Shown: one piece after another, positions 22,260 to 35,654 of the stretch
How the letters are laid out: every line of letters begins with the position of its first letter
How positions within the stretch are numbered: the first letter of the stretch is position 1
NCBI GenBank assembly: GCA_937129385.1
Contig: CAKZNC010000208.1
Location: 1-36,659, forward strand
Origin: an uncultured Bacteroidota bacterium
GTDB lineage: Bacteria; Bacteroidota; Bacteroidia; Bacteroidales; GCA-2748055
Length of the DNA: 36,659 nt
Direction of reading: 5' to 3'
The notes under the pieces: generated by a model
Database searches by the model: none
What the model saw: only the letters and a program-made list of their open reading frames with translations
What the model was told of the DNA's origin: nothing
Program-made: the position numbers and the translations under genes

Positions 22260-22304
22260 CGTATTGTAATTGCGCTGCAAAGGTACCATGAATTTTGAAG
22301 ACTC

Positions 22305-22425: not shown

Positions 22426-22434
22426 TAAAATTAA

Positions 22435-22470: not shown

Positions 22471-22491
22471 CAAAAATTCTACTTGTAAAAC

Positions 22492-23034
22492 TTAATTTTT
22501 CCTGAAGATCTTTGCCTTTTCAGTTTCGAATTCCTCTTCGGTGATCAATCCATTTTCATATAGCTCCACGAGCTTCATCAGTCTTTCATAATCATCCTCC
22601 CCGGAGTCGTTATCGTCCTGAACCACAGGTCCGGGCTGCACCGGCTGGTTATCCAGCGGCTGTAGCTTGAAATTATAATAGTCACGGTCATATTTCATCA
22701 GTGCTCCTGTAACGGCATCAAATGCAAATCCGATGGGACAGAATACATTCAGGATCACTGTTGGTTCAATGTCGGTACCCAGGTAATACATGTCTGCATA
22801 GTATCCATCCAGTTCAAGCCGGATATCTTTTCCGTTATCGACAAAGGCGTTCAGGTCCCGTTCGAGCCTGATCCTTGCAGGGGTGGTGCCCATGATATGG
22901 CCGTCGACAATGATGTCAGCTCCCGGGGGAGTGGAGTCAATGGTCACACGTTGCGTGGTACCGGTCAGTATAGTGGCGCAGCTGCTCATGAGGGCAGCAA
23001 CTGCCATGATCGCTAAGAGTTGAAGGTATTTCAT
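22492..23034 (-). CDS. Lipoprotein with PEGA-like and C-terminal SHOCT domains
   Basis: 180 residues. The lipoprotein signal ends ALMSSCA with Cys19. A PEGA-type beta segment follows (VTIDSTPPGADIIVDGHIMG, then TTPARIRL), which usually occurs in envelope proteins. After a Pro/Asp-rich linker the C-terminus is a SHOCT helix pair (LMKLVELYENGLITEEEFETEKAKIF), a short oligomerisation element. No enzymatic motif is present. A hydrophobic segment with a conserved GFAFDAVTGA stretch lies in the middle, as in many Bacteroidota lipoproteins. It is a single gene with its own strong terminator at 22435-22470. Confidence 0.82.
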   Translation of the reverse strand: MKYLQLLAIMAVAALMSSCATILTGTTQRVTIDSTPPGADIIVDGHIMGTTPARIRLERDLNAFVDNGKDIRLELDGYYADMYYLGTDIEPTVILNVFCPIGFAFDAVTGALMKYDRDYYNFKLQPLDNQPVQPGPVVQDDNDSGEDDYERLMKLVELYENGLITEEEFETEKAKIFRKN

Positions 23035-23173
23035 AATGTTGCTTGGTTTTAAATTTGTATTTCGTTGAGGGCATTGGATTTCGAATATTCATTCTCCAAA
23101 TTCTATGCCATTTTAAAACTAAAGACAACTGCAATTAAAGGGGGTTGCAAAATTCTGAAAATTTTCCTAAAGG

Positions 23174-23791
23174 TCAGATGACGGAGAAGTAAACAAGGCT
23201 CCTGTATACCATGTCCGCTGCGAAATAGATAAAAATCAGTGCAAATGCTTTGAATGCGGCTGGCACGATCTTCGGCCGTGAGAGCAATGCCCGGAACTGC
23301 GAAAACAGGTAGGCAACGATCATGGTAGAGATGAGCCATCCTGCCTGTACCAGTCCCATGAACAGGAAATCTCCCAGGGGCATGGTTTGTTCAAGCAATA
23401 CCGCCCTTGGAATGCAGATGGTGATCCAGTAGGTCCAGAGCACCCCGTTGGTGAGGATCATGACCGTGATCTTCCAGGGACCAAAGAAGACCTTCTCGTC
23501 TGTGTCCAGACTCTTTACCTTCCTGAGGCTGTTGGCGATCCACAGCAGTACAACCGCGCCTGCAAAGGAGAGGATCCGGAAGACCGATTCGTTCAGACCG
23601 AGAGATGAAAAGAGCAGCAGGCTGACCACCGCCACGGCTGTTTCGACGAACATGGCGATGAAAATAATCCGGAGCGCACTCCTGTAGCCCGACTGCAATA
23701 CCTGGGTGAAGATGGCGGTCACAACCGGACCCGGTATCAGTCCGCCAATGAGTCCGAGTGTTAAGGCCGTAAGCAGTTCCTGTGTGATCAT
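23174..23791 (-). CDS. LysE family translocator
   Basis: 205 residues with six hydrophobic helices. The N-terminal GLIGGLIPGPVVTAIFTQVLQSG is the LysE/RhtB signature (the family form is ..PGP....). Members export amino acids or related small molecules across the inner membrane. The ATG overlaps the stop of the upstream sulfatase by four bases (ATGA type), so the genes are translationally coupled. The pairing with a sulfatase is unusual and the exported substrate is not evident. Confidence 0.88.
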   Translation of the reverse strand: MITQELLTALTLGLIGGLIPGPVVTAIFTQVLQSGYRSALRIIFIAMFVETAVAVVSLLLFSSLGLNESVFRILSFAGAVVLLWIANSLRKVKSLDTDEKVFFGPWKITVMILTNGVLWTYWITICIPRAVLLEQTMPLGDFLFMGLVQAGWLISTMIVAYLFSQFRALLSRPKIVPAAFKAFALIFIYFAADMVYRSLVYFSVI

Positions 23792-25188
23792 TCTCTCGCG
23801 TTGGGTTGATAGTCAGGGTTCGGTTTTGATGGCACCCTGGCTTTGGACTGTGCCCTCCAGAGATACAGCATATTCATGAGTTCAGTGACTTTTTCCGGAT
23901 TCTGTTCTGCTACATTCTGCATTTCTCCGGGATCATCCACCAGGTTGAACAGTTCAATTTCCCCATCCTCAAAATACTCCTGCAGTTTCCAGTCACCATA
24001 CCGTATCACACTGCCGGGCCTGGTCCTGAACAGGATGTCCCGCGTATCTGTATTTCCTCGTTGCAGGTATACAGGGAAGTGCCAGTAAAGCGGTCTTTGT
24101 TCCGGTTTTTTTCCTTTGAGTAGCAAGGGTGCCAGGCTGATCCCGTCAAATCGTTTTCCAGGCAATTGTGCACCAATGATCTCCACCAGGGTAGGGAAGA
24201 AGTCCATGTTCAAAACTGGCACATCTTCATTGACTCCGGGCTTGATCACCGCTGGCCAGGAAAAGAACAACGGAACCCGAATACCTCCTTCATAATAGCT
24301 TCCTTTACCGGCCCGTAGTGGCTTCTGTTGGGATATCCTGAACAGGCCTCCGTTGTCAGACGTGAAAATAATGAGTGTGTTCTCATAGACCCCCATCTCT
24401 TTCAGTTTATCGACCAACAGGCCAATGTTCCGGTCGAGGTTATAGATCATGGTAGCGTACCGCGGGTTGCTCATCCCCGCTGTCCCGTGCTTATCTATGA
24501 ACCGGTACATCAGGCTGTCGACCTTGTGGATTGGCGTGTGCACAGCGTAGGGTGAATAATACAAAAAGAACGGATCACCATGCCTGTTGTCGAGGAATTC
24601 AAGCACATGATCCATGATGTTGTCCGTCAGGTAGGAGCTGTCGGGGGCCTCCAGGTCGACATTTCCATATGGAAAGTAGTACGACGTGGGATGACCGTTG
24701 TGTCCGCCACCAATGTTGTAATCAAATCCGTGATCACGGGAATCTTCACTCAGGTGCCACTTCCCGGCCTGGCAGGTTGTATATCCGTAAACCCGTAAAG
24801 CTTCGGCCATGGTGGTCATGCTGTCGTGCAGGGTGACCCGGTTTTTTGTAGGGATGATCTTCCGGTTACTGCTTAGGCCTCGCTCTGATGATCCGACGGT
24901 ATAGATGCCGTGGCGGGGTGTATTCAGACCTGTCATCATACACGCCCTGCTGGGAGCGCAGTTGGCACCGGCGGCATATCCCTGCAAAAAGACCAGTCCT
25001 TCTGATGCCAGCTGATCGATGTTGGGCGATTCATAATATGCACTGCCCATATAGCCGAGATCGGCCCATCCCAGGTCATCGACATTGATCAGTACAATAT
25101 GTGGCGGAACCTCCGGTGCTTTGCTTCGATTGCAGGAGAGGGTCATTGCAATGGCGACCAATACGATGAGGATGGATTTACTTTTCAT
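23788..25188 (-). CDS. Sulfatase (S1 family) lipoprotein
   Basis: 466 residues. The signal ends MTLSC with Cys19, indicating a lipoprotein. Metal-binding VDDLGWADLG contributes D37 and D38. The active-site motif is CAPSRACMMTG, with C77 the residue converted to formylglycine (C-x-P-S-R-x4-TG), so the anaerobic or aerobic maturase is required. FTSDNGG supplies the later Asp-Asn pair. Full length for an arylsulfatase-type S1 enzyme. It removes sulfate esters from a glycan or other substrate in the periplasm or at the surface. It is coupled by a 4-base overlap to the LysE-type exporter. Confidence 0.94.
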   Translation of the reverse strand: MKSKSILIVLVAIAMTLSCNRSKAPEVPPHIVLINVDDLGWADLGYMGSAYYESPNIDQLASEGLVFLQGYAAGANCAPSRACMMTGLNTPRHGIYTVGSSERGLSSNRKIIPTKNRVTLHDSMTTMAEALRVYGYTTCQAGKWHLSEDSRDHGFDYNIGGGHNGHPTSYYFPYGNVDLEAPDSSYLTDNIMDHVLEFLDNRHGDPFFLYYSPYAVHTPIHKVDSLMYRFIDKHGTAGMSNPRYATMIYNLDRNIGLLVDKLKEMGVYENTLIIFTSDNGGLFRISQQKPLRAGKGSYYEGGIRVPLFFSWPAVIKPGVNEDVPVLNMDFFPTLVEIIGAQLPGKRFDGISLAPLLLKGKKPEQRPLYWHFPVYLQRGNTDTRDILFRTRPGSVIRYGDWKLQEYFEDGEIELFNLVDDPGEMQNVAEQNPEKVTELMNMLYLWRAQSKARVPSKPNPDYQPNARE

Positions 25189-25261
25189 TACGTTCCGGGT
25201 TTCGTCCCGCTAAAATACAGAAAAAAACACTGAAACGCCCTGTACATAATCCACGCAATTT

Positions 25262-25556
25262 CCAGTGGTGCATTTAACTCTGCGTAAACTCTGCGTTACT
25301 CTGCGGTTCAACCCCCACGAGCAACGCGAGTCCCGCTTCCAGTGGTGCTCAACTGCGTGTAAACTCTGCGTTCCTCTACGGTTCAACCCCCACGAGCAAC
25401 GCGAGTCCCGCTCCCAGTGGTGGTCAACTCCGTGTAAACTCTGCGATACTTTGCGGTTATCCCCCACGAGCAACGCGAGTCCCGCTCCCAGTGGTGCTCA
25501 ACTCCGTGTAAACTCTGCGATACTTTGCGGTTATCCCCCACGAGCAACGCGAGTCC
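25262..25556. repeat. Four tandem imperfect copies of a ~75-bp repeat
   Basis: Copies begin at CCAGTGGTG (25262, 25339, 25414, 25488), with spacings of 77, 75 and 74 bases. The most conserved part is CCCCCACGAGCAACGCGAGTC, near the end of each copy. The first half is built from shorter CTCTGCG words. The block fills the gap between the sulfatase and the hemolysin III-type gene and ends five bases before the latter's stop codon. Frames across it are open only because the unit is repetitive. No CRISPR-like spacing is present. Confidence 0.9.
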
Positions 25557-25560
25557 ACCA

Positions 25561-26226
25561 TTACCGCGGTAATATGTAAAGATAGATCGCGAAGAAATGC
25601 GCTGCGTTCCCCGCGATCACAAAAAGGTGCCACACCAGGTGGTGGTACCTGAAAGTGCATTTCTTGTAAAAATAGATGCCGACCGTATAGAAAATCCCAC
25701 CCAGCAGAATCAGTATCCAACCCGGCGTGGCCATGGTCTGGATTACCGGGACGATGGCAATGATGATCAGCCATCCCATGGCCGCATAGATGGCAACGGA
25801 GATGGTATTCACCCCTTTTTCAAAATTCACCGGCCTGGCCAGCACCATTACCGACCCGGCAATGGCACATGCCCATTCGATCCCGAAGATGGTCCATCCC
25901 AGGGGTCCCCCCAGCAAGACAAGCGCCAGCGGTGTATAGGTGCCGGCGATCAGCAGGTAGATGGCGATTTTGTCCAGACTGAAAAAGAAATTCTTGAGCT
26001 TCCCCTGCTCCAGGTAATGGGTCATCGTAGAGGAGAGGTACAGGATGATCATTGATGATCCGAAAATGGCAGATGAGACGATGTCCCAACCATTTCCATG
26101 CCTTAAAGAAGTGATCAGCATCAGGACCAGCCCTGCAACTGCAAGGAGTGCCCCGGCAAAATGTGACAGCGCATTGGCCTTCTCCTCATTCTTCGAAAAT
26201 CTTGATACACCTGTGTATTCCGACAT
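25561..26226 (-). CDS. Hemolysin III/TrhA family membrane protein
   Basis: 221 residues from the ATG at 26224-26226, with seven predicted membrane helices. The family motifs are ANALSHFAGA in helix 1, SSTMTHYL, LDKIAIYLLIAGTYTPLAL, and HHLVWHLFVIAGNAAHFFAI near the C-terminus. The Ser, His and Asp residues match the metal site of the PAQR/HlyIII superfamily. Bacterial members (YqfA, TrhA) affect membrane fatty-acid homeostasis; the haemolysin name is historical. The stop lies five bases from the 75-bp repeat block. It is the last clearly chromosomal gene before the RHS array. Confidence 0.92.
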   Translation of the reverse strand: MSEYTGVSRFSKNEEKANALSHFAGALLAVAGLVLMLITSLRHGNGWDIVSSAIFGSSMIILYLSSTMTHYLEQGKLKNFFFSLDKIAIYLLIAGTYTPLALVLLGGPLGWTIFGIEWACAIAGSVMVLARPVNFEKGVNTISVAIYAAMGWLIIIAIVPVIQTMATPGWILILLGGIFYTVGIYFYKKCTFRYHHLVWHLFVIAGNAAHFFAIYLYILPR

Positions 26227-26383: not shown

Positions 26384-27352
26384 TTAGATAAGTCTGGTTG
26401 TTCTTAAAAGGCTTGGCAAGGAGGCCAAAAGGGACCATGAAATTGGGCAGGGAGACAATCCGATAATCCAATCATCAATGAGGAATAATTCCCTATTGGG
26501 ATCCGTATAGATGAGTGGATTATTCATCACATAGCTATACCTGTTCAGTCCATCGGCCAGGCCGGGGAACTGGACAAAGGGGTCGGGGCTCAGGAACCTT
26601 GCCAAAACCGGATCGTAGACCCTGCCGTTCATGTTGATCAGATCAAATGCAGGCAAATGCTCTTGGCCGGTGTAGCCGCGATCTGCAAATAGCTCTCCGG
26701 TGTACGTTTCTGTCCAGTCATCATACTGGCGCGGTACGCCCCAGGCGCTGTAACTGTATTTCGTTACCGCATCAGTCTCGGAGTTTATCACCCCGGAAAT
26801 GGATCCGAGATGGTCCGTTAATATATGATATAGTATGCCTGATGTATCCGTATTCACATATACTGCTGTTAACCCGTTGGGAGCGTTAATGTAATGATAT
26901 TTTGTTACATTTCCGTTAGCCAGCGAGTCTTCCTCATAATCGCCGAAAAAGTATTTGATCTTCTCCACTGCTGAATTTCGCTTCAGAATGGTCTTTACAC
27001 GCTGATTACTTAGTCCGTATGTAAATGAGAGGTTGATTGTTGTATCCTGATGAATCGTATCGCTGATACTGCTCACCTTATTGAAGCTCGTATAAGAGAT
27101 TTCCTGCGTAGGAGGCTTATAGGTAACAGCCGGTACTTCAATTTCTGTTAAAGCATGCGGCCCCGCATTACCGTCTCCGTAATTGAGATCCCTACCCACA
27201 TCGGACTTTGAAATAATATTCCCGTCATCTCCATATCCGATATCCATGGTCGCAGATGAAATCAGACTGTCATCGACGTAGTATTCAAACTCAGTAAGCC
27301 GGTTCATGTTATCGTAATCGAACAGCTCTAAATAGCCGTAACTAACTCTCAT
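26384..27352 (-). pseudogene. 5'-truncated RHS repeat protein with core domain and shortened C-terminal region
   Basis: 322 residues. YD repeats (FDYDNMNRLTEFEY, KYHYINAPNG) lead into a complete RHS core: DHLGSISGVI, YSAWGVPRQY, RGYTGQEHLPAFDLINMNGR, YDPVLARFLSPDPFVQ and RYSYVMNNPLIYTDP. A normal RHS protein would have over a thousand residues and an N-terminal signal before this. Here the sequence begins abruptly at an ATG next to GTAGTAATTTTTCT, the same edge motif that ends repeats R1-R3. After the core the variable part starts like that of the cassette at 34758-35642 (LFLIDDWIIG versus IFIIDDWVIG) and then ends after only about 25 residues, so the toxin is lost. It is probably a non-functional remnant or a recombination partner. 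Confidence 0.8.
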
Positions 27353-27366
27353 GTAGTAATTTTTCT
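27353..27366. repeat. R-edge motif next to the RHS remnant
   Basis: GTAGTAATTTTTCT directly abuts the ATG of the truncated RHS gene. The same motif with one or two changes ends the 105-bp repeats R1 (from 29404) and R2 (from 31814). A degenerate form ends R3. It marks the fourth RHS/TA junction of the array. Confidence 0.5.
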
Positions 27367-27367
27367 A

Positions 27368-27375
27368 TATCTTTG
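27368..27375 (+). promoter_or_regulatory. -7 box of TA module 1
   Basis: TATCTTTG is an exact match to the Bacteroidota -7 consensus TAnnTTTG, 37 bases before the ATG of the first TA1 gene. No good -33 TTG is seen at the usual distance. Confidence 0.5.
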
Positions 27376-27412
27376 TATCAGGGATATTTTCCTTGCAATA
27401 TATTTATTTTGT

Positions 27413-27658
27413 ATGCCAACATTAAAGTTCACGAATTATTTCCAGCATACCAGGCAACGGCCCGACAGAAAGGATATTAAGATGGAGTGGATTGAACAGG
27501 TGTACCGGTTCCCTGAGCATCAGGAGACCCAGACCGATGGAAGAAAAAGAATGTGGGGATACATTAAAGAAGCAGATAAATATTTACGCATTGTGGTACT
27601 CGAGGATCACCAGACCATTCACAATGCTTTCTTTGACAGAGATTTTAAAAAAGACTGA
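27413..27658 (+). CDS. TA module 1: DUF4258-like putative toxin
   Basis: 81 residues. The pattern MPTLKFTNYFQHTRQRPDRK, later GRKRMWGYIKEADKYLRIVV and TIHNAFFDRDF matches small DUF4258-type proteins, which are BrnT/RelE-like in fold and are commonly encoded with a DUF2283 partner as a putative toxin-antitoxin pair. The stop is one base before the ATG of the DUF2283 gene. It begins 60 bases from the broken 5' edge of the RHS remnant and is transcribed away from it. Its codon usage and base composition are closer to the chromosome than to the AT-rich neighbours. Toxicity is inferred from family context only. Confidence 0.7.
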   Translation: MPTLKFTNYFQHTRQRPDRKDIKMEWIEQVYRFPEHQETQTDGRKRMWGYIKEADKYLRIVVLEDHQTIHNAFFDRDFKKD

Positions 27659-27659
27659 T

Positions 27660-27866
27660 ATGAAAATTACATACTTCAAAGATACTGACACATTAATGGT
27701 TAATTTCAATGACAATGAAATTGCCCATACCAGGGATCTGAATGAAAACGTGCTGATTGAACTGGACAAAAACGGCGCTGTGGTATCCATGACCATTGAA
27801 CACGCACAGCAACAGACCGAGATCCAAAACTTCTCATTCAACCGGGTAGAGAATAAGGCGATCTAA
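27660..27866 (+). CDS. TA module 1: DUF2283 family putative antitoxin
   Basis: 68 residues beginning MKITYFKDTDTLMVNFNDNE, the usual start of DUF2283 (the Y....D.L.I.......T....N......D..G.I..I.I..A pattern). The frame is in-line with and almost overlapping the DUF4258-like gene (TGATATG junction). The two genes form a compact operon that ends 49 bases before the stop of a convergent small minus-strand gene. This gene order, toxin-like first, differs from TA2-TA4. Confidence 0.75.
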   Translation: MKITYFKDTDTLMVNFNDNEIAHTRDLNENVLIELDKNGAVVSMTIEHAQQQTEIQNFSFNRVENKAI

Positions 27867-27915
27867 GAAAGCCTTACGACTCAAGCTTGTAGAAGTATCT
27901 TGTTAAGCTCCATTG

Positions 27916-28086
27916 CTAAAACCACTCCCATCGGTGGGACTTTCTGAACCTGGCTTCTGGTTTCTTGTCCGGATACTCAAATAATCTCCTGTCGCTTTGT
28001 TTCTGCTTCTGTTTTTGAGAACGCCTCTGCATGCGCTTGAACCAGCTTGGAACGACAGACCTGCTATTTTTATAACTACGACTCAT
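27916..28086 (-). CDS. Small basic protein of the RHS array (MSRSYK type)
   Basis: 56 residues, MSRSYKNSRSVVPSWFKRMQ then a Gln/Lys/Arg-rich stretch ending in SHRWEWF. It is strongly basic with no membrane segment. Small proteins that start M[AGS]RSYK are seen beside RHS/WapA-type immunity genes in other genomes (recollection, not checked). It lies 40 bases downstream of the small membrane protein on the same strand and belongs to the first cassette unit. The function is unknown; an accessory immunity protein is possible. Confidence 0.6.
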   Translation of the reverse strand: MSRSYKNSRSVVPSWFKRMQRRSQKQKQKQSDRRLFEYPDKKPEARFRKSHRWEWF

Positions 28087-28126
28087 GATGATCTTTTTGC
28101 ACGGTGGACTTTAACAATAAATAAGG

Positions 28127-28363
28127 TTAAATCAGTTTTGATACCAAACTAATGAAAAAACTAAAGAATACCACAATTGATATCGATATTACAACATATA
28201 CAAAAATCAATATCAATGGCTTAATATTTACTCTTTCAATATAGGTGTTCTTTTTTACATATTTTATTGAAAGAAATGAGGCCACTGTTAAAGCCATGGA
28301 AAATATAACTACTGCTATATCACCCAAAATTGAATAATTGGATTCAAATAATAGAATACTCAT
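28127..28363 (-). CDS. Small membrane protein, putative immunity protein of cassette 1
   Basis: 78 residues from the ATG at 28361-28363; an upstream TTG is less likely. There are two strongly hydrophobic helices (ILGDIAVVIFSMALTVASFL and LILIFVYVVISISIVVFFSF) with a short charged loop (KYVKKNTYIERVN) between them. It starts 27 bases after the stop of the decayed RHS toxin and is AT-rich like it. Position directly after an RHS C-terminal toxin is the usual place of its immunity gene. A membrane immunity protein would fit a toxin acting on or in the inner membrane. This is inferred from position only. Confidence 0.6.
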   Translation of the reverse strand: MSILLFESNYSILGDIAVVIFSMALTVASFLSIKYVKKNTYIERVNIKPLILIFVYVVISISIVVFFSFFISLVSKLI

Positions 28364-28390
28364 AATTCTGTTCAATTAGCTTTTGTTGAA

Positions 28391-29303
28391 CTAGTTACCC
28401 CAGATAAGCCAAGGATCCGCGTTACCAGTAGGTATATCTTTCGTAAATCCAAAACCAAATCCCAATAAACCTAATTCACCTGTCCATTGTTGTCCTCCAA
28501 ATTCATCAGCATAAGTCACTTGTGACGCTATTCCCTAAATTCTAAATCTGCTTCCCAACCAACAGCATTTGCTTCATACAATTTCTCAAAGTTAAAATAT
28601 CTTAAATCTCCATCATACCAGGACGCACCAGCATTAAACCCTACACCTCCATGGGCTAAAGTCCATTGATCACTATATGACCTGGTTGTATATATTCCTT
28701 GATTATGTCCCCTTATAACTAATGAAATTCCTATATCCGCACTTCCTATAGCTGGATAACCAAAGGAAACACTAAAATTTATAGAGACTGGAATCAAATG
28801 TGATATTGTACTATTATACCACCAATTTTCTACAGCAAACCCAAATAAATATTTCTTATATGCAGAAACACCAAAATCCCTCACAAATATTGTATGCCCA
28901 TCTCTTTTGGCTGTTACCCACCTATAACCCTAAAATGGTCCAGAGTTCCAAACATAATATCTATTTCCCTCCTGCACCACTCTTCGACCCTCATCATCTG
29001 TATAATATGCGTTAGCTTTACCAGAGACTGGGTCCTGATATGAATAATATTTAGCTCCATCAATAAAATGGACATCTGTCGGCCCTGGGTCCCGTGAAAA
29101 TCTTCCGACATTTCCGGCACCAGGAAAAGTATTATTAAAGCCACGATAATTGTGGTAGGAATCATATTTGCCAGTTCTCGAATCATAACCGGCAAAATAG
29201 TTGAACCCGCCTCCGCCGCCATTTCGATAATACTCATCATATTCATCCTGCACCCATTGAGGCATGAACCCGAAGGATCTGTAAACAGCAGGGGATTATT
29301 CAT
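28391..29303 (-). pseudogene. Decayed orphan RHS C-terminal toxin cassette 1
   Basis: The RHS junction RYSYVMNNPLLFTDPSG is followed by about 290 codons of a glycine- and beta-rich domain, spread over broken frames. A single missing base near 29278 moves the frame from NNPLLFTDPSG to MPQWVQDEYDEYYRNGG. A TAG at 28930-28932 interrupts ...YYVWNSGPF/GYRWVTAKRDG in the same frame. A missing base near 28532 moves the frame from GWEADLEFRE to IASQVTYADEFGGQQWTGEL, ending at the TAG at 28391. With the three lesions repaired the product is continuous. No family was recognised. The cassette lacks any 5' RHS region; its upstream edge is repeat R1. Confidence 0.8.
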
Positions 29304-29310
29304 CACGTAG

Positions 29311-29414
29311 CTATACCGGTAAACCCAAAATCAAAGATTTTCTCCCGACTTTTCAATGACCAGGACCTGGCCCAATTCAAAAAACATTCAATAACCCCTA
29401 AGGTAGTGATTTTT
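29311..29414. repeat. Direct repeat R1 (about 105 bp) at the RHS cassette edge
   Basis: The first of three copies. It begins at CTATACCGGT inside the RYSY codons of cassette 1 and ends at GGTAGTGATTTTT. About 90% of positions agree with R2. It contains the short inverted repeat AAAATC-AAA-GATTTT that is identical in all three copies. On the minus strand a frame reading FFELGQVLVIEKSGENL stops at TGA five codons before YRYSY. Confidence 0.9.
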
Positions 29415-29562
29415 TCTTTTCAATTGAAGAGCTTTTTTCAACTCGCTGCGCGGCTCAGTTGAAAGAAAAAAAGCCAGCCCGTTATGACAGAACTGTGCAT
29501 TTTTACCACTTAGGCAACTTTACAAAGCCAGCGGGGGAAGGCAAGGTTTTTAATGACAGCAA
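29415..29562. other. Non-coding spacer with stem-loop between R1 and TA module 2
   Basis: No gene is visible. TTCAACT (29437-29443) and AGTTGAA (29457-29463) form a 7-bp stem flanked by GCTTTTT and AAAAAAAGC arms that extend it with bulges. It also holds the palindrome TTCAATTGAA (29419-29428). The extra 150 bases make this junction longer than those at R2 and R3. Confidence 0.5.
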
Positions 29563-29593
29563 TTGCCATTGAGCAAGTAAAACTGTAAATTTG
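29563..29593 (+). promoter_or_regulatory. Promoter of TA module 2
   Basis: TTG (29563-29565), 20 bases, TAAATTTG (29586-29593) matches the Bacteroidota -33/-7 consensus. The ATG of the antitoxin-like gene follows 30 bases later. Confidence 0.6.
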
Positions 29594-29623
29594 CACTATT
29601 GGAATGAGTTAAAATTTGACAAA

Positions 29624-29848
29624 ATGGCACGTATAGTAATCGACATACCGGACAGTAAGTTAAGTTTCTTTATGGAACTTGTTAAAAACCTTGGGTTTGC
29701 CAAGATCGCAAATGAATCAAAAACGTCTGATATAATGGATATTCCGGAAGCACACCAAAAACTGGTCATGGATCGATTCAACAAGGTTAGAAAAAATCCC
29801 GATAAACTAATGGATTGGGACGAAGCTAAAAAAACGCTTAAAGCCTGA
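29624..29848 (+). CDS. TA module 2: putative antitoxin
   Basis: 74 residues from the ATG at 29624; an upstream frame extension to 29591 would overlap the promoter. The N-terminus (MARIVIDIPDSKLSFFMELV) resembles small antitoxins or ribbon-helix proteins, and the C-terminus (RKNPDKLMDWDEAKKTL) is charged and probably binds the toxin. It overlaps the ParE-like gene by one base (TGATG), which indicates translational coupling. Both gene order and size are typical of type II modules. The family itself was not recognised with certainty. Confidence 0.75.
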   Translation: MARIVIDIPDSKLSFFMELVKNLGFAKIANESKTSDIMDIPEAHQKLVMDRFNKVRKNPDKLMDWDEAKKTLKA

Positions 29849-30162
29849 TGAAAAAACACACGGTCAAAATTGACCCGGATGCCCTGAATGATATCCAGGA
29901 GATCACCAACTGGTACAATGATCAACAAAAAGGCCTCGGTGGAAGGTTTCAGAAAACCGCCATACAGCAAATCAACTCCCTTAAGAAAGACCCTCATATT
30001 TATGCCATTCGATACAACGAGATCCGGTGCATGTCAATTAAGAAATTCCCGTACATGGCCCATTTCTTCATTAACGATGAAAACAACACTGTCGAAGTCC
30101 TGGCTGTGATCAGCACGGATCGTAATCCAAAAATCTGGGAACAAAAAACAAGCAGGCAATAA
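29848..30162 (+). CDS. TA module 2: RelE/ParE family toxin
   Basis: 104 residues. The pattern VKIDPDALNDIQEITNWYND, then GRFQKTAIQQINSLKKDP, YAIRYNEIRCMSIKKFPYM and VLAVISTDRNPKIW is that of the ParE branch, including the conserved RNP.W end that occurs in many Bacteroidota members. It would inhibit gyrase or cleave mRNA; which of these cannot be decided. It is coupled to the antitoxin gene. Its 3' end is convergent with the immunity gene of cassette 2, with an intrinsic terminator between them. Confidence 0.88.
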   Translation: MKKHTVKIDPDALNDIQEITNWYNDQQKGLGGRFQKTAIQQINSLKKDPHIYAIRYNEIRCMSIKKFPYMAHFFINDENNTVEVLAVISTDRNPKIWEQKTSRQ

Positions 30163-30188
30163 AAAACCCTGGGGATTCCAGGGCTTTA
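30161..30188 (-). terminator. Terminator between TA module 2 and cassette 2
   Basis: CCCTGG (30167-30172) pairs with CCAGGG (30178-30183) around GGATT. On the minus strand six T residues follow, which suits termination of the immunity gene of cassette 2. On the plus strand CTTTAAGC gives a weaker signal for TA2. Confidence 0.75.
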
Positions 30189-30244
30189 AGCTATACTTAA
30201 TTGGGATTTTTGAACTATTTTCGTAAGATCGACGGATCCGATAT

Positions 30245-30844
30245 TTATTCACTATTCTGTTCTCTACCATTAATATACATCACTTTGCGGGGTTCTGATT
30301 TTTCATTATAAAAAATATGAAGCCCATGCTTTATTAACTTTTTGTTTCTAGAAACATATGGCCCTTCCTCTATTAAAACTTCATCAGAATACAGAAAACA
30401 GTAATTTGTTTCTACCAAATCAGTATCTGGATCGTCAATTATATGTTTACAATACTTTGTTATTCTTCCTTCATTATCATAGCATTTACAATAAGTTGGA
30501 TCTCCTGTAGCTGACCTCATCTGGATTTTTTTCGTTAACCCATTTTTATAATAGGTCTTGGCACTATCTAAAAAGAATGATTGTTTCTTTCCGTCTATCA
30601 TTTGACTAGCACCAATTGCCAAAAACTTTATAATACCATTGAAATACTTATCAACGATTAATGTTTTATATAGGTATATCGAGCTATCAAGTGAAGAATA
30701 AATCTGTTCGTACTTTTCCAAATCATTCTTTGCCACATCATACGTTTGGGCAATTATTCTACAATTAGATATCAGAAATAGAAGGGATAAATAAAGAACA
30801 ATTCTGAATTTTATACTGAGTTGCAATTTTACTATTTTCTCCAT
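30245..30844 (-). CDS. Exported putative immunity protein of cassette 2
   Basis: 199 residues. The hydrophobic N-terminus FRIVLYLSLLFLISNCRIIAQ is a signal peptide; Cys28 is a possible but atypical lipidation site (ISNC), otherwise cleavage would follow IIAQ. The mature part contains short MORN-like units (AKTYYKNGLTKKIQMRS, NEGRITKYCKH, KHGLHIFYNEKSEPRKVMYI) typical of beta-repeat envelope proteins in Bacteroidota. Its start codon lies 13 bases inside the end of the preceding toxin gene, so it is translationally coupled to it. This arrangement and its export suggest an immunity protein acting in the periplasm. No family is assigned. Confidence 0.7.
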   Translation of the reverse strand: MEKIVKLQLSIKFRIVLYLSLLFLISNCRIIAQTYDVAKNDLEKYEQIYSSLDSSIYLYKTLIVDKYFNGIIKFLAIGASQMIDGKKQSFFLDSAKTYYKNGLTKKIQMRSATGDPTYCKCYDNEGRITKYCKHIIDDPDTDLVETNYCFLYSDEVLIEEGPYVSRNKKLIKHGLHIFYNEKSEPRKVMYINGREQNSE

Positions 30845-31668
30845 AGATGCATAAATAAAAAATACCTATCCCTGGCATATGATGGCCAGTGTTTGTAAGT
30901 CCAAGATTTATTTTCATTAACTTTTAGTGCTAATACTGTAAAGGGCCTTCTTCCATCTTGACTAACTGTTGCTGCTTGTTGAATTCTTAGTCTAGGCCAT
31001 GGTAGTGGTTCCCTGAAAATTTGATGACATGGGTCTGATTTATCAATTGGAAAATCACCAGTAAAAAAACTCTTGCCATCCCAGCGTGCTTGTAATCCTT
31101 CAGAAATACCTCCGGCTAAGGCTGAAGTACCTGCACCTATAAAAGTGTGCCAAAATAGATCTTCTCCTTCAAGACCTTGAATTTTCCCATCTATAAAACT
31201 TGTTGTACCACCTACTGTTCCATGAATTCCTGCACCCTTCCAGAATCCTATGCTATTTTTAACAGGATTGATCATATTATTAACTCCTCCAGTAATAGCG
31301 CCAGAAATTAAACCACTAACTCCCGCTTTCCAAACAGCATCAATGTCACCACCTGATGAAACGGCAGTGAAAGCCATATTTAGATTTCCTGAGATTAATG
31401 AAGATGATGTCATTGACCAACCCAAACTTGAACCTCCAGTTGCATTAACCATATAACCCACCGTGGATGGGCCTAAAAAAGATGCAGTTAAAGCACCTGC
31501 TCCTGCTCCAATAATGCCTCCAACAATTGCTCCTTTCCACCATTCTGATTCTTTTGTCCACTTACCTTGTTTGCCCCCAAATGGATTCCAATTTGCCTTG
31601 CCTGCTTCTCCTGCCTTAATAGAACCTCCAATATAAGCTCCAATAATAGCACCCCCAATCACCCACAT
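30832..31668 (-). CDS. Orphan RHS C-terminal toxin cassette 2
   Basis: 278 residues from the first ATG at 31668. In frame upstream the RHS junction VYRYSYCLNNPLVYTDPDGE is present but has no start codon, so the cassette is a 5'-truncated orphan. A Gly/Ala-rich hydrophobic pretoxin region follows (WWKGAIVGGIIGAGAGAL, GVSGLISGAITGGVNNMINP, GTSALAGGISEGLQARW), then a C-terminal domain of about 75 residues (FPIDKSDPCHQIFREPLPWP and onward to RDRYFLFMHLWRK). No nuclease or peptidase motif is evident. It overlaps the immunity gene at its 3' end. It could act as a silent donor for recombination with an intact RHS gene elsewhere, or be expressed weakly from the ATG. Confidence 0.72.
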   Translation of the reverse strand: MWVIGGAIIGAYIGGSIKAGEAGKANWNPFGGKQGKWTKESEWWKGAIVGGIIGAGAGALTASFLGPSTVGYMVNATGGSSLGWSMTSSSLISGNLNMAFTAVSSGGDIDAVWKAGVSGLISGAITGGVNNMINPVKNSIGFWKGAGIHGTVGGTTSFIDGKIQGLEGEDLFWHTFIGAGTSALAGGISEGLQARWDGKSFFTGDFPIDKSDPCHQIFREPLPWPRLRIQQAATVSQDGRRPFTVLALKVNENKSWTYKHWPSYARDRYFLFMHLWRK

Positions 31669-31720
31669 GATGAACTCTCCATCAGGATCAGTATAAACCA
31701 GCGGGTTATTCAGGCAGTAA

Positions 31721-31824
31721 CTATACCGGTAAACCCAAAATCAAAGATTTTCTCCCGGTTTTTCAATGACCAGGATCTGGCCCAATTCAAAGAACTTTCT
31801 TTAACCCCTAAGGTAGTGGTTTTT
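31721..31824. repeat. Direct repeat R2 (about 105 bp) at the RHS cassette edge
   Basis: The second copy, from CTATACCGGT to AGGTAGTGGTTTTTC. On the minus strand it reads RKFFELGQILVIEKPGENL then TGA, five codons before VYRYSY; the residue changes relative to R1 are conservative (V/I, S/P). It separates the truncated 5' edge of cassette 2 from TA module 3, 53 bases away. Confidence 0.9.
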
Positions 31825-31853
31825 CTTATATTCAAAGTGTCATAAAAAAGTAG

Positions 31854-31861
31854 TAATTTTG
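31854..31861 (+). promoter_or_regulatory. -7 box of TA module 3
   Basis: TAATTTTG fits TAnnTTTG exactly and lies 15 bases before the ATG of the antitoxin. At the -33 position only TTC (31831-31833) is seen. Confidence 0.5.
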
Positions 31862-31876
31862 TAAAAAAGAAGTATT

Positions 31877-32086
31877 ATGGGAGCGCTAAGACAACAATTC
31901 ATTGAAGACAAACAGGGTAACAGAATCGCTGTCCTGATGCCCATTGACCAGTACAATAAGCTACTGGATCAATTGGAGGATATCGATGATATACGTACTT
32001 ACGATGCTGCCAAAGCAGAGGGTGATGAGATCATTCCTTTTGATCAGGCTATAAGCGAGATTGAGAAAAAGCGTAATGACCTATAA
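31877..32086 (+). CDS. TA module 3: Phd/YefM-like antitoxin
   Basis: 69 residues. The segment RQQFIEDKQGNRIAVLMPIDQYNKLLDQLEDIDDI is the Phd/YefM-type DNA-binding N-terminus (..V.I....Y..L...LEE..D.). The acidic C-terminus (AKAEGDEIIPFDQAISEIEK) neutralises the toxin. It overlaps the RelE gene by 11 bases, as is usual for these pairs. It starts 52 bases from repeat R2. Confidence 0.85.
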   Translation: MGALRQQFIEDKQGNRIAVLMPIDQYNKLLDQLEDIDDIRTYDAAKAEGDEIIPFDQAISEIEKKRNDL

Positions 32087-32330
32087 GATCTCCATACGCC
32101 GCAAGGCTCAAAAACAACTGGCCAGGATTCCGGCCAGCGACTACAAAAAAGTAAAGGCAGCTATTCAAGCCCTTGCAAACAACCCCAGACCATCAGGATC
32201 CAAAAAACTCAAAGGTCGGCCCGGATGGCGGATCCGACAGGGTAACTACCGCGTGATCTATGAGATTCAGGATGACCAACTCATTGTCCTTGTTCTGGAC
32301 ATTGGGAACAGAAAGGATATCTACAGATAA
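32076..32330 (+). CDS. TA module 3: RelE family toxin
   Basis: 84 residues from the ATG at 32076. YKISIRRKAQKQLARIPASD, NPRPSGSKKLKGRPGWRIRQ and GNYRVIYEIQDDQLIVLVLDIGNRKDIY are textbook RelE motifs, with the basic and aromatic residues used for ribosome-dependent mRNA cleavage (R..R.G.YRV.Y). The gene ends 30 bases from the stop of the convergent cassette 3 immunity gene. Confidence 0.93.
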   Translation: MTYKISIRRKAQKQLARIPASDYKKVKAAIQALANNPRPSGSKKLKGRPGWRIRQGNYRVIYEIQDDQLIVLVLDIGNRKDIYR

Positions 32331-32360
32331 AAAGCCCCGGAAGATGCCAGCTATTAAATA

Positions 32361-32756
32361 TTATGGATATGAGATAGTCCAGTCCAAATTTTCTAAATCT
32401 GATAATGATATTATTCTCACGTCTAAATATTTAATCTCTTCTATCAGAGTAATAGCATCATAATATTGAGCAGTATCAAAATTAGAAATGTAAATAGTAA
32501 CATAAGTATTATCATTTCCAAAAAGCACTTCTTCCCATGTAAGTTGATCACAACATTCTTTATTAGTTAATGGGTCAATTGAAGTTCCAAAACAGTCATC
32601 AATCCATATAACTGAATCCGGCATTTCTTGGCATACAACGTCAACCCATAATTTGTCTTCTGAATTGTTTGCAAAATGCAACCTACAGTCTAAATCATCT
32701 TTGCATTGAGATGCAGAAAAGATAATAAAAAGACAAATCAAAACAATTCTATTCAT
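32361..32756 (-). CDS. Lipoprotein, putative immunity protein of cassette 3
   Basis: 131 residues. The signal ends FSASQC with Cys18, so it is a predicted lipoprotein. The C-terminus SLSDLENLDWTISYP is nearly the same as that of the putative immunity protein at 34325-34750 (LSDLDSLEWTIIYP). Both follow HEYGH metallopeptidase toxin genes, so these are paralogous immunity proteins of paralogous toxins. Four further cysteines lie in the mature part (LDCRL, VVCQE, DDCFG, ECCDQ). A lipoprotein location suggests that the toxin acts in the periplasm or enters through it. It starts 10 bases after the toxin stop. Confidence 0.78.
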   Translation of the reverse strand: MNRIVLICLFIIFSASQCKDDLDCRLHFANNSEDKLWVDVVCQEMPDSVIWIDDCFGTSIDPLTNKECCDQLTWEEVLFGNDNTYVTIYISNFDTAQYYDAITLIEEIKYLDVRIISLSDLENLDWTISYP

Positions 32757-32766
32757 AACTATCTAT

Positions 32767-33516
32767 TTATAAATTCCATAAAAATGAAATTGGAATTAAA
32801 TCAAAGTAATTGAATTTATTGAACTCTCTAGGATATCTGTTATTATTCCAATCCTTATATGTGTATGAATAACTTCGAGAGCTTGGGTCCCATATTATCT
32901 TATCTACATATACTTTCATTTTATCAGCATGATATAGGCTAAAGTAATCATATGCTCTTTGATTTGCATCTAGTTCAGCTTTCCCATAATTATTAGTCAA
33001 TTTACTAGGAATTGCATATTTGGTAAAGTAATAAACTCCAACTTTTTGACTTTGAATATAATGCCCATATTCATGCATGAATGTATTTGAGAATACAGTT
33101 TCTATTGCACCAGTTCTTGGATTTCTGTAGCTTTCATAAAGGGAGGTGTATGTACCTAATTGTATATAAGGTCCCAGTGAAAAACTACCACCGTCCCAGC
33201 AATCCTCTAATACTGTGGCCCCATCTACGTAATGTATGTCTCCGACATCTTTAATGTTATTCGTAAGATGAGCCACATTTTTTCCAATAAATGTTTGTGG
33301 TGCTTGCCAAGTAAATCTCGAAATTACCTCCCATGCTTTACCCCCGAAAGACTTATTTGGATCTGTTTTAAACATTCCCATATCAATTTTCCATGAATTA
33401 CTAACTTTATTGCCAAAGTCGTTCCAAGCATTTACAAACATTTGTCCTCCCTTCTGTGTGTCTCCTGTAATCATTGTATAAAAATATGGAACTACAATTC
33501 CTTTCACAAAAGCCAC
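32767..33516 (-). CDS. Orphan RHS C-terminal toxin cassette 3, HEYGH zinc peptidase
   Basis: 249 residues if read from the GTG at 33516. The in-frame RHS junction (VYRYTYCLNNPLVYTDPDGE, to 33600) has no start codon, so the cassette is a 5'-truncated orphan and the GTG may not be used. After a hydrophobic linker comes AWEVISRFTWQAPQTFIGKN, and then the zinc site MHEYGHYIQSQ (HEYGH, residues 148-152, HExxH type), with a likely third ligand in AELDANQRAYDYF about 30 residues later. This fits a metallopeptidase toxin domain. It is clearly related to cassette 4. A lipoprotein immunity gene follows after 10 bases. Confidence 0.78.
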   Translation of the reverse strand: MAFVKGIVVPYFYTMITGDTQKGGQMFVNAWNDFGNKVSNSWKIDMGMFKTDPNKSFGGKAWEVISRFTWQAPQTFIGKNVAHLTNNIKDVGDIHYVDGATVLEDCWDGGSFSLGPYIQLGTYTSLYESYRNPRTGAIETVFSNTFMHEYGHYIQSQKVGVYYFTKYAIPSKLTNNYGKAELDANQRAYDYFSLYHADKMKVYVDKIIWDPSSRSYSYTYKDWNNNRYPREFNKFNYFDLIPISFLWNL

Positions 33517-33604
33517 GGTAAATTGAACACCCGCTGTAAAAATCGTACCTAAGATAAACTCCCCATCGGGGTCTGTATAGACAAGCGGGTTATTCAGGCA
33601 GTAA

Positions 33605-33708
33605 GTATACCGGTAAACCCAAAATCAAAGATTTTCTCCCGACTTTTCAATGACCAGGATCCAACCCGATTCAAAGAACTTTCATTAAGCCCTAAGTTAG
33701 TGATTTTC
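33605..33708. repeat. Direct repeat R3 (about 105 bp) at the RHS cassette edge
   Basis: The third copy, from GTATACCGGT to AGTTAGTGATTTTCC. It is the most diverged copy, reading KFFESGWILVIEKSGENL then TGA on the minus strand. The AAAATC-AAA-GATTTT inverted repeat is intact. It lies between the 5' edge of cassette 3 and the promoter of TA module 4. Confidence 0.88.
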
Positions 33709-33721
33709 CCGGGTGATTCAA

Positions 33722-33753
33722 TTTGAATGCTAACTTTATAAGCTGTAACTTTG
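33722..33753 (+). promoter_or_regulatory. Promoter of TA module 4
   Basis: TTTG (33722-33725), 20 bases, TAACTTTG (33746-33753) fully matches the Bacteroidota -33/-7 consensus. The antitoxin ATG at 33774 follows 20 bases later, which also argues against the in-frame ATG at 33727. Confidence 0.65.
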
Positions 33754-33773
33754 TTTACACAATAAAGATAAAA

Positions 33774-34025
33774 ATGAAATCAAATACATCTGAAATAAAA
33801 AATTACCTGCATAAGCTCATTGTTGAGACCGATGACGAAAGCATTCTCAGTAAGGTTCAGGCTTATTTTACCACGCTCAAAAGTAATGACGTTGATTGGT
33901 GGGATATGATTTCAGACCAGGAAAAAGATGCCATCAATTTGGGCTTGCAACAGCTTAAAAACGGGGAGGGGATTCCTCACGAAGAAGTAAAACGTAAGGC
34001 AGATAAACTGCTCGGCAGAAAATGA
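33774..34025 (+). CDS. TA module 4: putative antitoxin
   Basis: 83 residues from the ATG at 33774. MKSNTSEIKNYLHKLIVETD then DWWDMISDQEKDAINLGLQQL and GIPHEEVKRKADKLLG is a common pattern of Bacteroidota antitoxins encoded with RelE/ParE toxins. The C-terminal helix is amphipathic. The stop overlaps the next start (ATGA, 34022-34025), so the two are coupled. Confidence 0.82.
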   Translation: MKSNTSEIKNYLHKLIVETDDESILSKVQAYFTTLKSNDVDWWDMISDQEKDAINLGLQQLKNGEGIPHEEVKRKADKLLGRK

Positions 34026-34312
34026 AAGAATATCTTATCATTTGGTCTCCGCTTGCAGAAGAAACGTATCTCAATATCCTTTCTCAGATCCTGGAAAAAT
34101 GGACCGTCAGGGAAGCTGAAGCCTTTGAAACCAAAGTTGAAAGTCTGATTGACAAACTCAGGACACAAAAGTACCTGTGTCCATCTTCAAAGAAACAAAA
34201 AGGCCTGAGACGCTGCGTAATTGCACCTCAGACTTCCCTGGTATATCAAATCACCGGTGATGTAATCGAACTGATCGCTTTCTTTGATAACAGAAGCCAA
34301 CATCAGTATTAG
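34022..34312 (+). CDS. TA module 4: RelE/ParE family toxin
   Basis: 96 residues. KEYLIIWSPLAEETYLNILS, KWTVREAEAFETKVESLIDKL, RRCVIAPQTSLVYQI and VIELIAFFDNRSQHQY follow the RelE/ParE superfamily pattern ending in FFDNRS or FWD.R. It may be a ribosome- or gyrase-targeting toxin. It ends 12 bases before the stop of the convergent cassette 4 immunity gene, with no space for a separate terminator. Confidence 0.88.
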   Translation: MKEYLIIWSPLAEETYLNILSQILEKWTVREAEAFETKVESLIDKLRTQKYLCPSSKKQKGLRRCVIAPQTSLVYQITGDVIELIAFFDNRSQHQY

Positions 34313-34324
34313 ATGTTCTCTGGC

Positions 34325-34750
34325 TCACGGATAAATAATAGTCCACTCTAAGCTGTCTAAGTCACTCAATGTAAGATCACACCTTTTTAATATCAGGTAT
34401 TTAGACACAATTTGATCCCATTCGGTGCTTACAATAGTATTTTTCGCGAATAAAAATACCCGTAATGTATCAGGTGTTTCATTATTAGTAAAGGAATAGA
34501 TCCAATTTGATTCATCCTCGATTAAAGAATTCGCTTTTATTGTTAAAGCTTCATATTGTACTTCGTCTTTTATGAACTTCATTTTTTCTAGAGTAGTATC
34601 ATCTTGAAAACTAGCAATGTGGATTAAGTCTTCTGCAGAATTATTTACTATTGTAAGTGTGGAATCAGGCTCTATTTCTTCTAAACCATCCATAACGCAT
34701 TTAGAAGACCCCGTAATTAATAGTATTAGTATGACTATCAGATTTTTCAT
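34325..34750 (-). CDS. Lipoprotein, putative immunity protein of cassette 4
   Basis: 141 residues. The signal ends TGSSKC with Cys18, giving a predicted lipoprotein. The C-terminal LSDLDSLEWTIIYP matches the paralog at 32361-32756 (LSDLENLDWTISYP), and a central ITIVNNSAEDLIHI-like segment matches its LHFANNSEDKLWVD. It follows the HEYGH toxin gene by 7 bases, so it is almost certainly its cognate immunity protein, acting from the envelope side. Confidence 0.78.
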   Translation of the reverse strand: MKNLIVILILLITGSSKCVMDGLEEIEPDSTLTIVNNSAEDLIHIASFQDDTTLEKMKFIKDEVQYEALTIKANSLIEDESNWIYSFTNNETPDTLRVFLFAKNTIVSTEWDQIVSKYLILKRCDLTLSDLDSLEWTIIYP

Positions 34751-34757
34751 GGCTTCA

Positions 34758-35642
34758 TTAATTAAATAAGGTGTATAGAATGTAAAATAGGTTTATTCCT
34801 GGAAAGTTGATTAATAAATCAGAGTTGTCAAATTGCCCTTTAATCGGATGAGCACTTCTGTTCTTATAACCTGTCCTTGGATTAATATAACTAGAAGGTG
34901 ATCCTGTTACAAATGAAGTTCGATCAAAACTAGTTTCTCGCTTGTCAAAGAAATTGGCAGCTCTTTTACTGGCATTGGCCTCAAACCATCTCTCGGAGTG
35001 TAAGTTTACTTTGTTTTCATTATCCCAATTATAGCTAGCAACGCTTGGAATTCCCACTAACGGTAAATAATAAAAACCAAAATCTCTGCTTTGTAGGACA
35101 TGACCATATTCATGCACAAAAAGATGATCTTTATAATCTGCTCTAATTCCTTCAGGGCCTAAAATGTAACTTCCCATTTTAAAGGCTCCCTTCCCATTAA
35201 AGTTCTTGCTTGAAATTACAGTCGCTCCATAACCATAATCTACATTATCTACTTGGCCAAACATATTTACAGAATGAGCAGTTAAAAATCCTCCGGCAGT
35301 CTGTATTATTTCCCACGTAAATCTTGAAACAATTTGCCATCCCCAGCCTTCTTTCTTTGTGTCTGCTACAAATAATCCTCCCCATATTTTTGCAGAGTTT
35401 TTGGCATGCCTATTTGCAGATTGCCAGGCATTTTCACTTTTGTCGCTATCAAATAAACCTTTAAAAAAACCTATTACCCAATCATCGATGATAAATATTT
35501 CCCCACTCGGATCAGTATACACCAGCGGATTATTCAGGCAGTAAGTATACCTGTTTGAAGCTGACCTTTCTTCTGTGAAATGGACACAGTAATCTGGTGT
35601 CAAAGCAACTGCAGAAGCGGTATTGTAGTCAGTTTCATTCAT
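34758..35642 (-). CDS. Orphan RHS C-terminal toxin cassette 4, HEYGH zinc peptidase
   Basis: 294 residues with an ATG at 35640-35642. A short unrelated lead (MNETDYNTASAVALTPDYCV) precedes the RHS junction NRYTYCLNNPLVYTDPSGE, so most of the RHS protein is absent. The variable part begins IFIIDDWVIGFFKGLF, includes VSRFTWEIIQTAGG, and has the zinc site VHEYGHVLQSRDFG (HEYGH, residues 177-181) with a likely third ligand E221 in RWFEANASKRAANFF. It is homologous to cassette 3 and followed by a paralogous lipoprotein immunity gene. The ATG is 12 bases from the stop of the upstream sulfatase gene, so it could be translated from sulfatase transcripts. No R repeat is present here. Confidence 0.8.
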   Translation of the reverse strand: MNETDYNTASAVALTPDYCVHFTEERSASNRYTYCLNNPLVYTDPSGEIFIIDDWVIGFFKGLFDSDKSENAWQSANRHAKNSAKIWGGLFVADTKKEGWGWQIVSRFTWEIIQTAGGFLTAHSVNMFGQVDNVDYGYGATVISSKNFNGKGAFKMGSYILGPEGIRADYKDHLFVHEYGHVLQSRDFGFYYLPLVGIPSVASYNWDNENKVNLHSERWFEANASKRAANFFDKRETSFDRTSFVTGSPSSYINPRTGYKNRSAHPIKGQFDNSDLLINFPGINLFYILYTLFN

Positions 35643-35654
35643 TTTGGTCTGATA

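Follow-up and report, generated by a model that had tools for sequence, protein, structure and literature searches.

Toxin-antitoxin modules between the cassettes of an orphan RHS toxin/immunity array in an uncultured Bacteroidales bacterium: possible locks on an archive

How can a row of orphan toxin genes persist when recombination between its repeats would remove them? Arrays of orphan rhs-CT/rhsI and cdiA-CT/cdiI modules are described as units that extend between successive core ends, each with a truncated core end that lacks a start codon, a variable C-terminal toxin and a small gene after it, and recombination of a full-length gene with a distal orphan would delete all modules in between; arrays with up to eleven orphan pairs nonetheless exist (Poole et al., 2011; PMC3150448). 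The question is raised anew by positions 26384-35642 of a 36,659-nucleotide stretch of DNA (hereafter the window) from an uncultured Bacteroidales bacterium (assembly GCA_937129385.1, contig CAKZNC010000208.1). The reading we consider most likely, with a probability of about 0.5, is that this is an orphan RHS toxin/immunity archive built by recombination, in which captured toxin-antitoxin (TA) modules are kept as addiction genes.

The earlier note on this DNA described five 5'-truncated RHS pieces on the minus strand alternating with four two-gene TA modules on the plus strand, and this alternation was borne out (Table 1). A profile search with the core model places the RHS core ends at 26489-26680, 29268-29321, 31675-31731, 33559-33615 and 35499-35645 of the minus strand, which are the sole core-model matches (E up to 0.01) in the 4.28-Mb assembly and lie in open frames of 138-326 aa. 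For this core model only, and in an assembly that is 99.7% complete, there is no full-length RHS gene among the matches of the genome itself, the longest frame being 326 aa. Matches to TIGR03696 were obtained in units A, B, C and E, with only that of E above the cut-off. The uniform layout proposed for the units holds for A, B and C, where an open toxin frame is followed by a small ORF at the immunity position, but not for D, where a frame change and stops interrupt the toxin gene, or for E, which has lost its toxin. The small ORFs behind toxins A-D are predicted immunity genes by position, and those of A and B share a 25-aa match.

Table 1. Features of the array, with positions counted from the first nucleotide of the window.
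Feature	Position	Strand	Basis
Unit E, longest RHS piece (322 aa), toxin cut off	26384..27352	-	core match, TIGR03696
TA1, DUF4258-like + DUF2283 genes	27413..27866	+	DUF4258 E 0.006 (below Pfam cut-off); DUF2283 E 1.9e-15
56-aa ORF seen again at RHS/TA junctions	27916..28086	-	recurs in G223:C39 and G316:C52
Putative immunity gene D (82 aa)	28127..28375	-	ORF list, position only
Unit D, broken toxin gene (frame change, stops)	28528..29321	-	three-frame translation
Repeat block D, RHS core end + leader	29268..29413	-	repeat comparison, translation
TA2, Unstab_antitox-like antitoxin + ParE toxin	29621..30162	+	Pfam; antitoxin just below cut-off
Putative immunity gene C (199 aa)	30245..30844	-	ORF list, position
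Unit C, toxin frame, edge without start codon	30832..31740	-	ORF list, translation, TIGR03696
Repeat block C, RHS core end + leader	31675..31823	-	repeat comparison, translation
TA3, RelB/Phd-like antitoxin + ParE toxin	31877..32330	+	PF18506, PF05016
Putative immunity gene B (131 aa)	32361..32756	-	ORF list, position
Unit B, toxin frame, edge without start codon	32767..33624	-	ORF list, translation, TIGR03696
Repeat block B, RHS core end + ~100-nt non-coding leader	33559..33707	-	155-nt repeat family; stops in RHS frame
TA4, antitoxin without clear family + ParE/YafQ-like toxin	33777..34312	+	PF05016; TIGR00053 below cut-off; antitoxin RelB-like weakly (E 0.09)
Putative immunity gene A (141 aa)	34325..34750	-	position after toxin; 25-aa BLASTP match to immB; function inferred
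Unit A, RHS edge + toxin ORF (294 aa, HEYGH motif)	34758..35642	-	core match; 32.6% identity to toxin B

In common with the known orphan rhs/cdi arrays, the window has core ends that lack the delivery part and lead into a variable C-terminus, with small ORFs next, edges without start codons (B and C) and a layout of units from core end to core end; it differs from them in the opposite-strand TA modules between the units, in a shared non-coding leader and in that a full-length gene was not found. The array is flanked by a sulfatase gene, whose stop codon lies 12 nt from the start of the rightmost RHS ORF, and an HlyIII gene; in the congener G318 homologues of these two flanking genes are directly adjacent. 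G+C drops across the array. The earlier note had named an intact RHS gene without TA modules at this locus in close relatives as evidence against its reading; RHS is absent beside the HlyIII gene in both congeners checked, so there is no sign of an intact RHS gene simply decaying.

Each of the four inter-edge intervals holds one TA module. By Pfam, TA2 and TA3 are, in the manner of type II systems, adjacent small-gene pairs with recognized toxin and antitoxin families, while the DUF4258 match of TA1 and the antitoxin of TA4 are weak. The pairs had been described as belonging to different families, which is accurate for the antitoxins but not for the toxins, three of the four falling in PF05016; BLASTP among the four toxins gave no mutual match at E up to 1. 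A promoter-like TAnnTTTG box lies 15-37 nt upstream of every module; the 9.6 kb contain six such boxes on the plus strand, and four of them are these.

Beyond the RHS homology, edges B, C and D share approximately 100 nt of non-coding sequence that had previously been overlooked. Together with the core end it forms a 155-nt repeat present in three copies, two of which are 82% and 88% identical to the reference copy, and a 55-nt core is found at all five edges with 69-87% identity. The leader motif, in turn, failed as a feature common to all five, being absent at A (7 mismatches) and present at E with 5. Different TA modules start beyond the shared leader at B, C and D. Since leader and edge are common to three units and a different TA follows just past the leader, each repeat-bounded interval holds one TA with its own promoter-like box, and one TA in every such interval is what a lock against recombination would require. 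The archive would have been assembled by recombination, with the RHS core end, plus the leader in three units, as the repeated block, and TA modules from different families would have been captured repeatedly at broken RHS edges within this Bacteroidales family. Recombination between two edges would then delete the TA of the interval along with the toxin/immunity genes or their remnants, the antitoxin gene would be gone, and the leftover toxin would poison the cell.

Enrichment of TA genes at orphan RHS edges of related genomes, on which the earlier note had staked its interpretation, is found in the GTDB family of the window (28 genomes). With the window's own genome excluded, 14 of the 119 toxins of the ParE, HigB and HEPN families have an RHS piece at a distance of 2.5 kb or less, where about 0.3 are expected (ParE 9/50 vs. 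0.13; HigB 3/36 vs. 0.09; HEPN 2/33 vs. 0.09), taking only toxin matches over the curated cut-off (51/66, 36/38 and 34/37 rows, respectively). The genome-wide toxin counts are lower bounds, as the PF05016 search recovered one of the three ParE toxins of the window and missed a TA4-like pair in L061. A nearby toxin accompanies 13 of 28 truncated RHS pieces and none of the 8 full-length ones (p 0.016), “truncated” meaning an open frame under 1,000 aa and including at least one piece (G317:C7) cut by a contig end.

A second comparison covered all ORFs of 65-160 aa at RHS edges. From 260 RHS core hits, 76 with 330 aa or more of upstream frame were not taken as edges, others were dropped because the core end was missing, the upstream sequence was shorter than 1,200 nt or the sequence was repeated, and the remaining 125 comprise 24 edges of the family, 97 from elsewhere and 4 of the window. 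TA genes were found at 10 of the 24 family edges, a count that combines per-family Pfam counts with our own reading of the sequences, as Pfam gave no per-ORF counts, and at 1 of 121 control windows. At one of the 10 there is just a HEPN fragment together with an isolated antitoxin-like ORF. In the controls Pfam gave no TA toxin family, and HTH_3-type ORFs were few there (1 and 2 members); the single positive is counted because phmmer found a ParE-like ORF in control window L060. Outside the family, TA genes occur at just 3 of the 97 orphan edges, and one of the three is a weak case, so arrays can evidently do without them. For TA homologues at RHS pieces across genera, dN/dS is 0.16 (HigB) and 0.08 (ParE) in pairs with dS below 2, several saturated pairs having been left out.

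The arrangement recurs in other genera. A second alternating array (G314:C138) has five RHS pieces and four different TA modules, namely Phd/YoeB, HTH/Gp49 of the HigBA type, Unstab_antitox/ParE, and a small partner with PIN; one TA per interval as a rule is seen there and in the window only. In G311:C137 a Zeta toxin of 188 aa and a 55-aa partner lie between two RHS edges, and this module is left out of the 10 above because it exceeds the size range. A homologue of TA4 with 74-75% nucleotide identity adjoins an RHS edge in a further genus (G304), and the leader motif is 91 nt from that edge, close to its spacing in the window; by BLASTN the remainder of the leader does not align. The homologue is shortened.

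The TA frames of the window are open whereas units D and E are broken, which, with no full-length RHS gene found in the genome, also fits selfish TA modules in dispensable DNA. There is a sizeable minority chance that such modules merely hitchhike, settling in broken RHS arrays that are dispensable, A+T-rich and prone to recombination, where they are tolerated and maintain themselves while the array gains nothing. The lower G+C of the array agrees with this, as do the RHS pieces that have a TA and stand alone, without a neighbouring repeat in the available sequence, and the clustering of TA toxins elsewhere (14 of 119 are near another TA toxin). We count these last two against locking, along with the array of G306:C908, also in this family, where a full-length RHS gene and the three orphans after it have no TA. 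Indiscriminate settling is harder to reconcile with the Y1 transposases, which mark mobile sites of a different kind: around the 35 examined, none of the 119 toxins lies within 2.5 kb and one lies within 5 kb. This amounts to a lack of enrichment rather than depletion, as our chance estimate is only about 0.2-0.3, and one of the 35 belongs to the window's genome, whose toxins were left out. The near absence of TA genes from the control windows, the presence of a single TA in each interval of two arrays from separate genera and the TA4-edge neighbourhood common to different genera also speak against it.

It is improbable that a putative enzyme uses the leader as a recombination site to insert TA-bearing cassettes, with any stabilization secondary. 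The leader motif and the RHS edge are indeed 91-95 nt apart in three units of the window, in G223:C22 (which matches 29396-29441, at block D, with 87% identity) and in G304:C191; in G316:C52 the motif has a TA on one side and a truncated non-RHS ORF on the other, and a recombinase-fragment-like ORF adjoins a TA in G314. However, all other family edges scanned apart from G223:C39 show 5 or more mismatches and so lack the motif, the array ORFs of the window include no visible integrase, and as an attC site the leader fails, folding like its shuffles in five of six tests (z -0.28 to 0.83; the sixth, -1.98). As a general site the motif was likewise rejected, since a relaxed search hit 14 places and its reversed control 13, and only the closest copies are therefore used; a copy in G313 with 1 mismatch falls within a transposase-like frame. 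The exact 32-nt leader pattern occurs in 0 stretches of the genome contigs of other species searched. Across 295 genomes of the order, other matches to the leader query start at or near an RHS edge, with one exception; in G176 there is a single 27-nt match in the leader part. The single Rfam match across the array, to a human lncRNA model, is sub-threshold (E 0.79) and does not fall in the leaders.

Least probable of all is that the RHS toxin/immunity pairs themselves hold the locus as an addiction or contact-surveillance system with the TA modules incidental, for while orphan RHS pairs of Salmonella are reported to act as type II TA systems (PMC7043789) and CDI loci to stabilize plasmids (PMC4927057), the edges of frames B and C offer no start codon, unit D is broken, E is without a toxin and no full-length RHS was found. 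The likeness to those reports lies in toxin/immunity loci with an addiction or surveillance role; there the role falls to the RHS or CDI pair, and here separate ParE, HigB, PIN or Zeta modules lie between or beside the cassettes.

For TA locking, a close known parallel is the chromosomal integron, in which TA modules likewise sit within an array of cassettes. In the superintegron of Vibrio cholerae they are spread through mostly cryptic cassettes, 19 among 179, and are held to stabilize the array by post-segregational killing (PMC11551772). The window has one TA per interval, its repeats are RHS edges with a leader and no attC-like fold in place of attC hairpin sites, the integron integrase has no visible counterpart among the array ORFs, and the cargo is toxin/immunity pairs; a stabilizing effect here would be by analogy. 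The interpretation of the earlier note, that TA modules stabilize the array, is partly supported, and its term “toxin library” may be generous, given that the genome yielded no full-length RHS gene that could be reloaded. Tentatively, the wider picture could be an integrase-free gene bank locked by TA modules, with TA modules from seven or more toxin families recruited in this Bacteroidales family to the broken edges and, in the two clearest arrays, a lock of its own in every interval that homologous recombination can remove. TA-stabilized arrays, as integrons, and orphan RHS arrays are each already known; what is new is the combination.

If locking is correct, a TA in each deletable interval would be a testable answer to how orphan toxin/immunity archives escape collapse, and stabilization by TA, known from plasmids and integrons, would extend to gene archives that homologous recombination has built. 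Should the TA modules be only passengers, their strong lineage-specific link to broken RHS edges would still need explaining, and it helps to locate both in genomes.

Five RHS pieces truncated at their 5' ends, units A to E, make up the array, and between their core-end matches lie four toxin-antitoxin (TA) modules of two genes each, TA1 to TA4, on the plus strand. Read along the minus strand, the order is toxin A, immunity A, TA4, block B, toxin B, immunity B, TA3, block C, toxin C, immunity C, TA2, block D, a broken toxin D, a putative immunity D, a 56-aa ORF, TA1 and RHS piece E, whose toxin has been lost. Blocks B, C and D, each an RHS core end with its leader, are 155-nt repeats (82 and 88% identity to the reference copy) in which the first ~100 nt are non-coding for RHS, with stops in the RHS frame, and at the RHS edge neither frame B nor frame C has a start codon. 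The TA genes start ~50 nt (C), ~70 nt (B) and ~200 nt (D) beyond the repeat block, and a TAnnTTTG box, which we take to be the Bacteroidota -7 element, lies 15-37 nt upstream of every TA in the window; the TA strand carries six such boxes in 9.6 kb, four of them at TA modules. Toxins A and B, related to each other at 32.6% identity, have no Pfam match above a cut-off, and the motif that they have in common suggests that both may be zinc peptidases. The 56-aa ORF, which has no NCBIfam match, is 84% identical to its copy in the congener G223 (dN/dS 0.12), the copy in G316 has an in-frame stop, and its link to RHS is biased in that the loci compared were mostly fetched via RHS.

Coordinates of features in the window and in two loci of relatives
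Feature	Location	Strand	Observation
Array	26384-35642		
Tandem repeat	25276-25539		~75-nt repeat, three to four copies, just past the HlyIII gene 3' end
56-aa ORF	27916-28086	-	Recurs at RHS/TA junctions of G223:C39 and G316:C52
Non-coding segment	29455-29551		Upstream of TA2; 75.5% identity over 98 aligned nt to G315:C381 near an RHS piece
Toxin B	32767-33516	-	HEYGH (HExxH-type) motif
Toxin A	34758-35642	-	HEYGH (HExxH-type) motif
Two TA modules	L059 (G304:C252) 2484-4095		HigBA-type and MazEF-like (latter named by eye), side by side, adjoining one orphan RHS edge
Leader motif copy	L221 (G316:C52) ~3479-3502		Between a TA and a 5'-truncated ORF resembling a SIR2 domain (by eye)

The source assembly (4.28 Mb, 236 contigs, 99.7% complete), of which the window is one entire contig (C208), has five matches to the RHS core-end model, every one inside the array. 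The G+C content in 1-kb windows from 27001 is 0.34-0.43 vs. 0.47-0.53 in 20001-26000. Homologues of the flanking HlyIII and sulfatase genes adjoin in the congener G318 (ORFs 167 nt apart); G223 has different genes upstream of its HlyIII gene, on a contig with no match to the RHS core-end model. Since the flanking genes are neighbours in G318 and the HlyIII contig of G223 is without an RHS match, the array looks, from these comparisons, like an acquisition at a site empty in G318.

The earlier note expected TA modules to be enriched at truncated RHS pieces in related genomes, and this is borne out across 28 genomes of the window's GTDB family (~105 Mb, the window's own excluded; toxin matches above cut-off only), where 9 of 50 ParE (0.13 expected), 3 of 36 HigB (0.09) and 2 of 33 HEPN toxins (0.09) have an RHS piece no more than 2.5 kb away, in fragmented assemblies and by searches that miss some toxins. 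Such a toxin accompanies 13 of 28 truncated pieces vs. 0 of 8 full-length ones, families without an RHS link being under-represented because these toxins were picked once the window or RHS edges had already shown TA of such kinds. TA toxins also group with each other (14/119), and near 35 Y1 transposases serving as control anchors the counts are 0/119 within 2.5 kb and 1/119 within 5 kb. A Pfam scan of small ORFs up to 1.5 kb upstream of orphan edges covered all Pfam families and is free of bias from toxin-family selection. By our reading of the Pfam results and sequences, TA stand at 10 of 24 family edges vs. 1 of 121 control windows (p 2e-8), or vs. the 28 windows in family loci, which include the single positive (p 0.001). 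Outside the family (order and beyond) the count is 3 of 97, one of them weak. The association is a property of the window's family; elsewhere arrays seldom have TA.

Within the family, five RHS pieces alternate with four TA modules in G314:C138 (Phd/YoeB; an HTH/Gp49 pair of HigBA type; Unstab_antitox/ParE; a PIN toxin with a partner of no assigned family), the two last pieces being short and found by a model without the core end, and the first gap also holding, by reading, a transposase-like and a recombinase-fragment-like ORF. A Zeta toxin and 55-aa partner sit between two RHS edges in G311:C137. HigBA (G304, G311), HEPN (G306, G311) and related ParE (G316, G312) each occur at RHS pieces in two genera, and TA4 is at an RHS edge in the window and in G304, which also has the leader motif. 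A full-length RHS gene followed by three orphans in G306:C908 forms an array in which no TA was found. The leader motif copy in G316:C52 suggests that such junctions may not be confined to RHS.

Orphan arrays are known, as are TA-stabilised arrays. TA interleaved with orphan RHS cassettes are not described among the matches listed from the open-licence literature (titles and abstract starts), nor in the portion of PMC3482391 consulted. An excerpt of PMC11551772, citing Iqbal 2015 and Richard 2024 on superintegron TA, reports a role for the V. cholerae TA cassettes that matches the mechanism we infer here. The window has cis repeats, a single TA per interval and a promoter-like box at every TA, and the link between TA and RHS pieces recurs in other genera of the family. 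Each recombination event from edge to edge would delete a toxin, an immunity gene and a single TA, and cells that lost the TA would be penalised. The main rival is that TA settle as selfish passengers in dispensable DNA, which explains equally well the broken toxins next to open TA frames, but fits less well with one TA per interval in two arrays and with transposases that lack TA enrichment. Because of these last two observations, the balance tilts modestly towards TA that punish loss of an array interval, a reading that would meet the problem that Poole et al. (PMC3150448) describe for orphan arrays.
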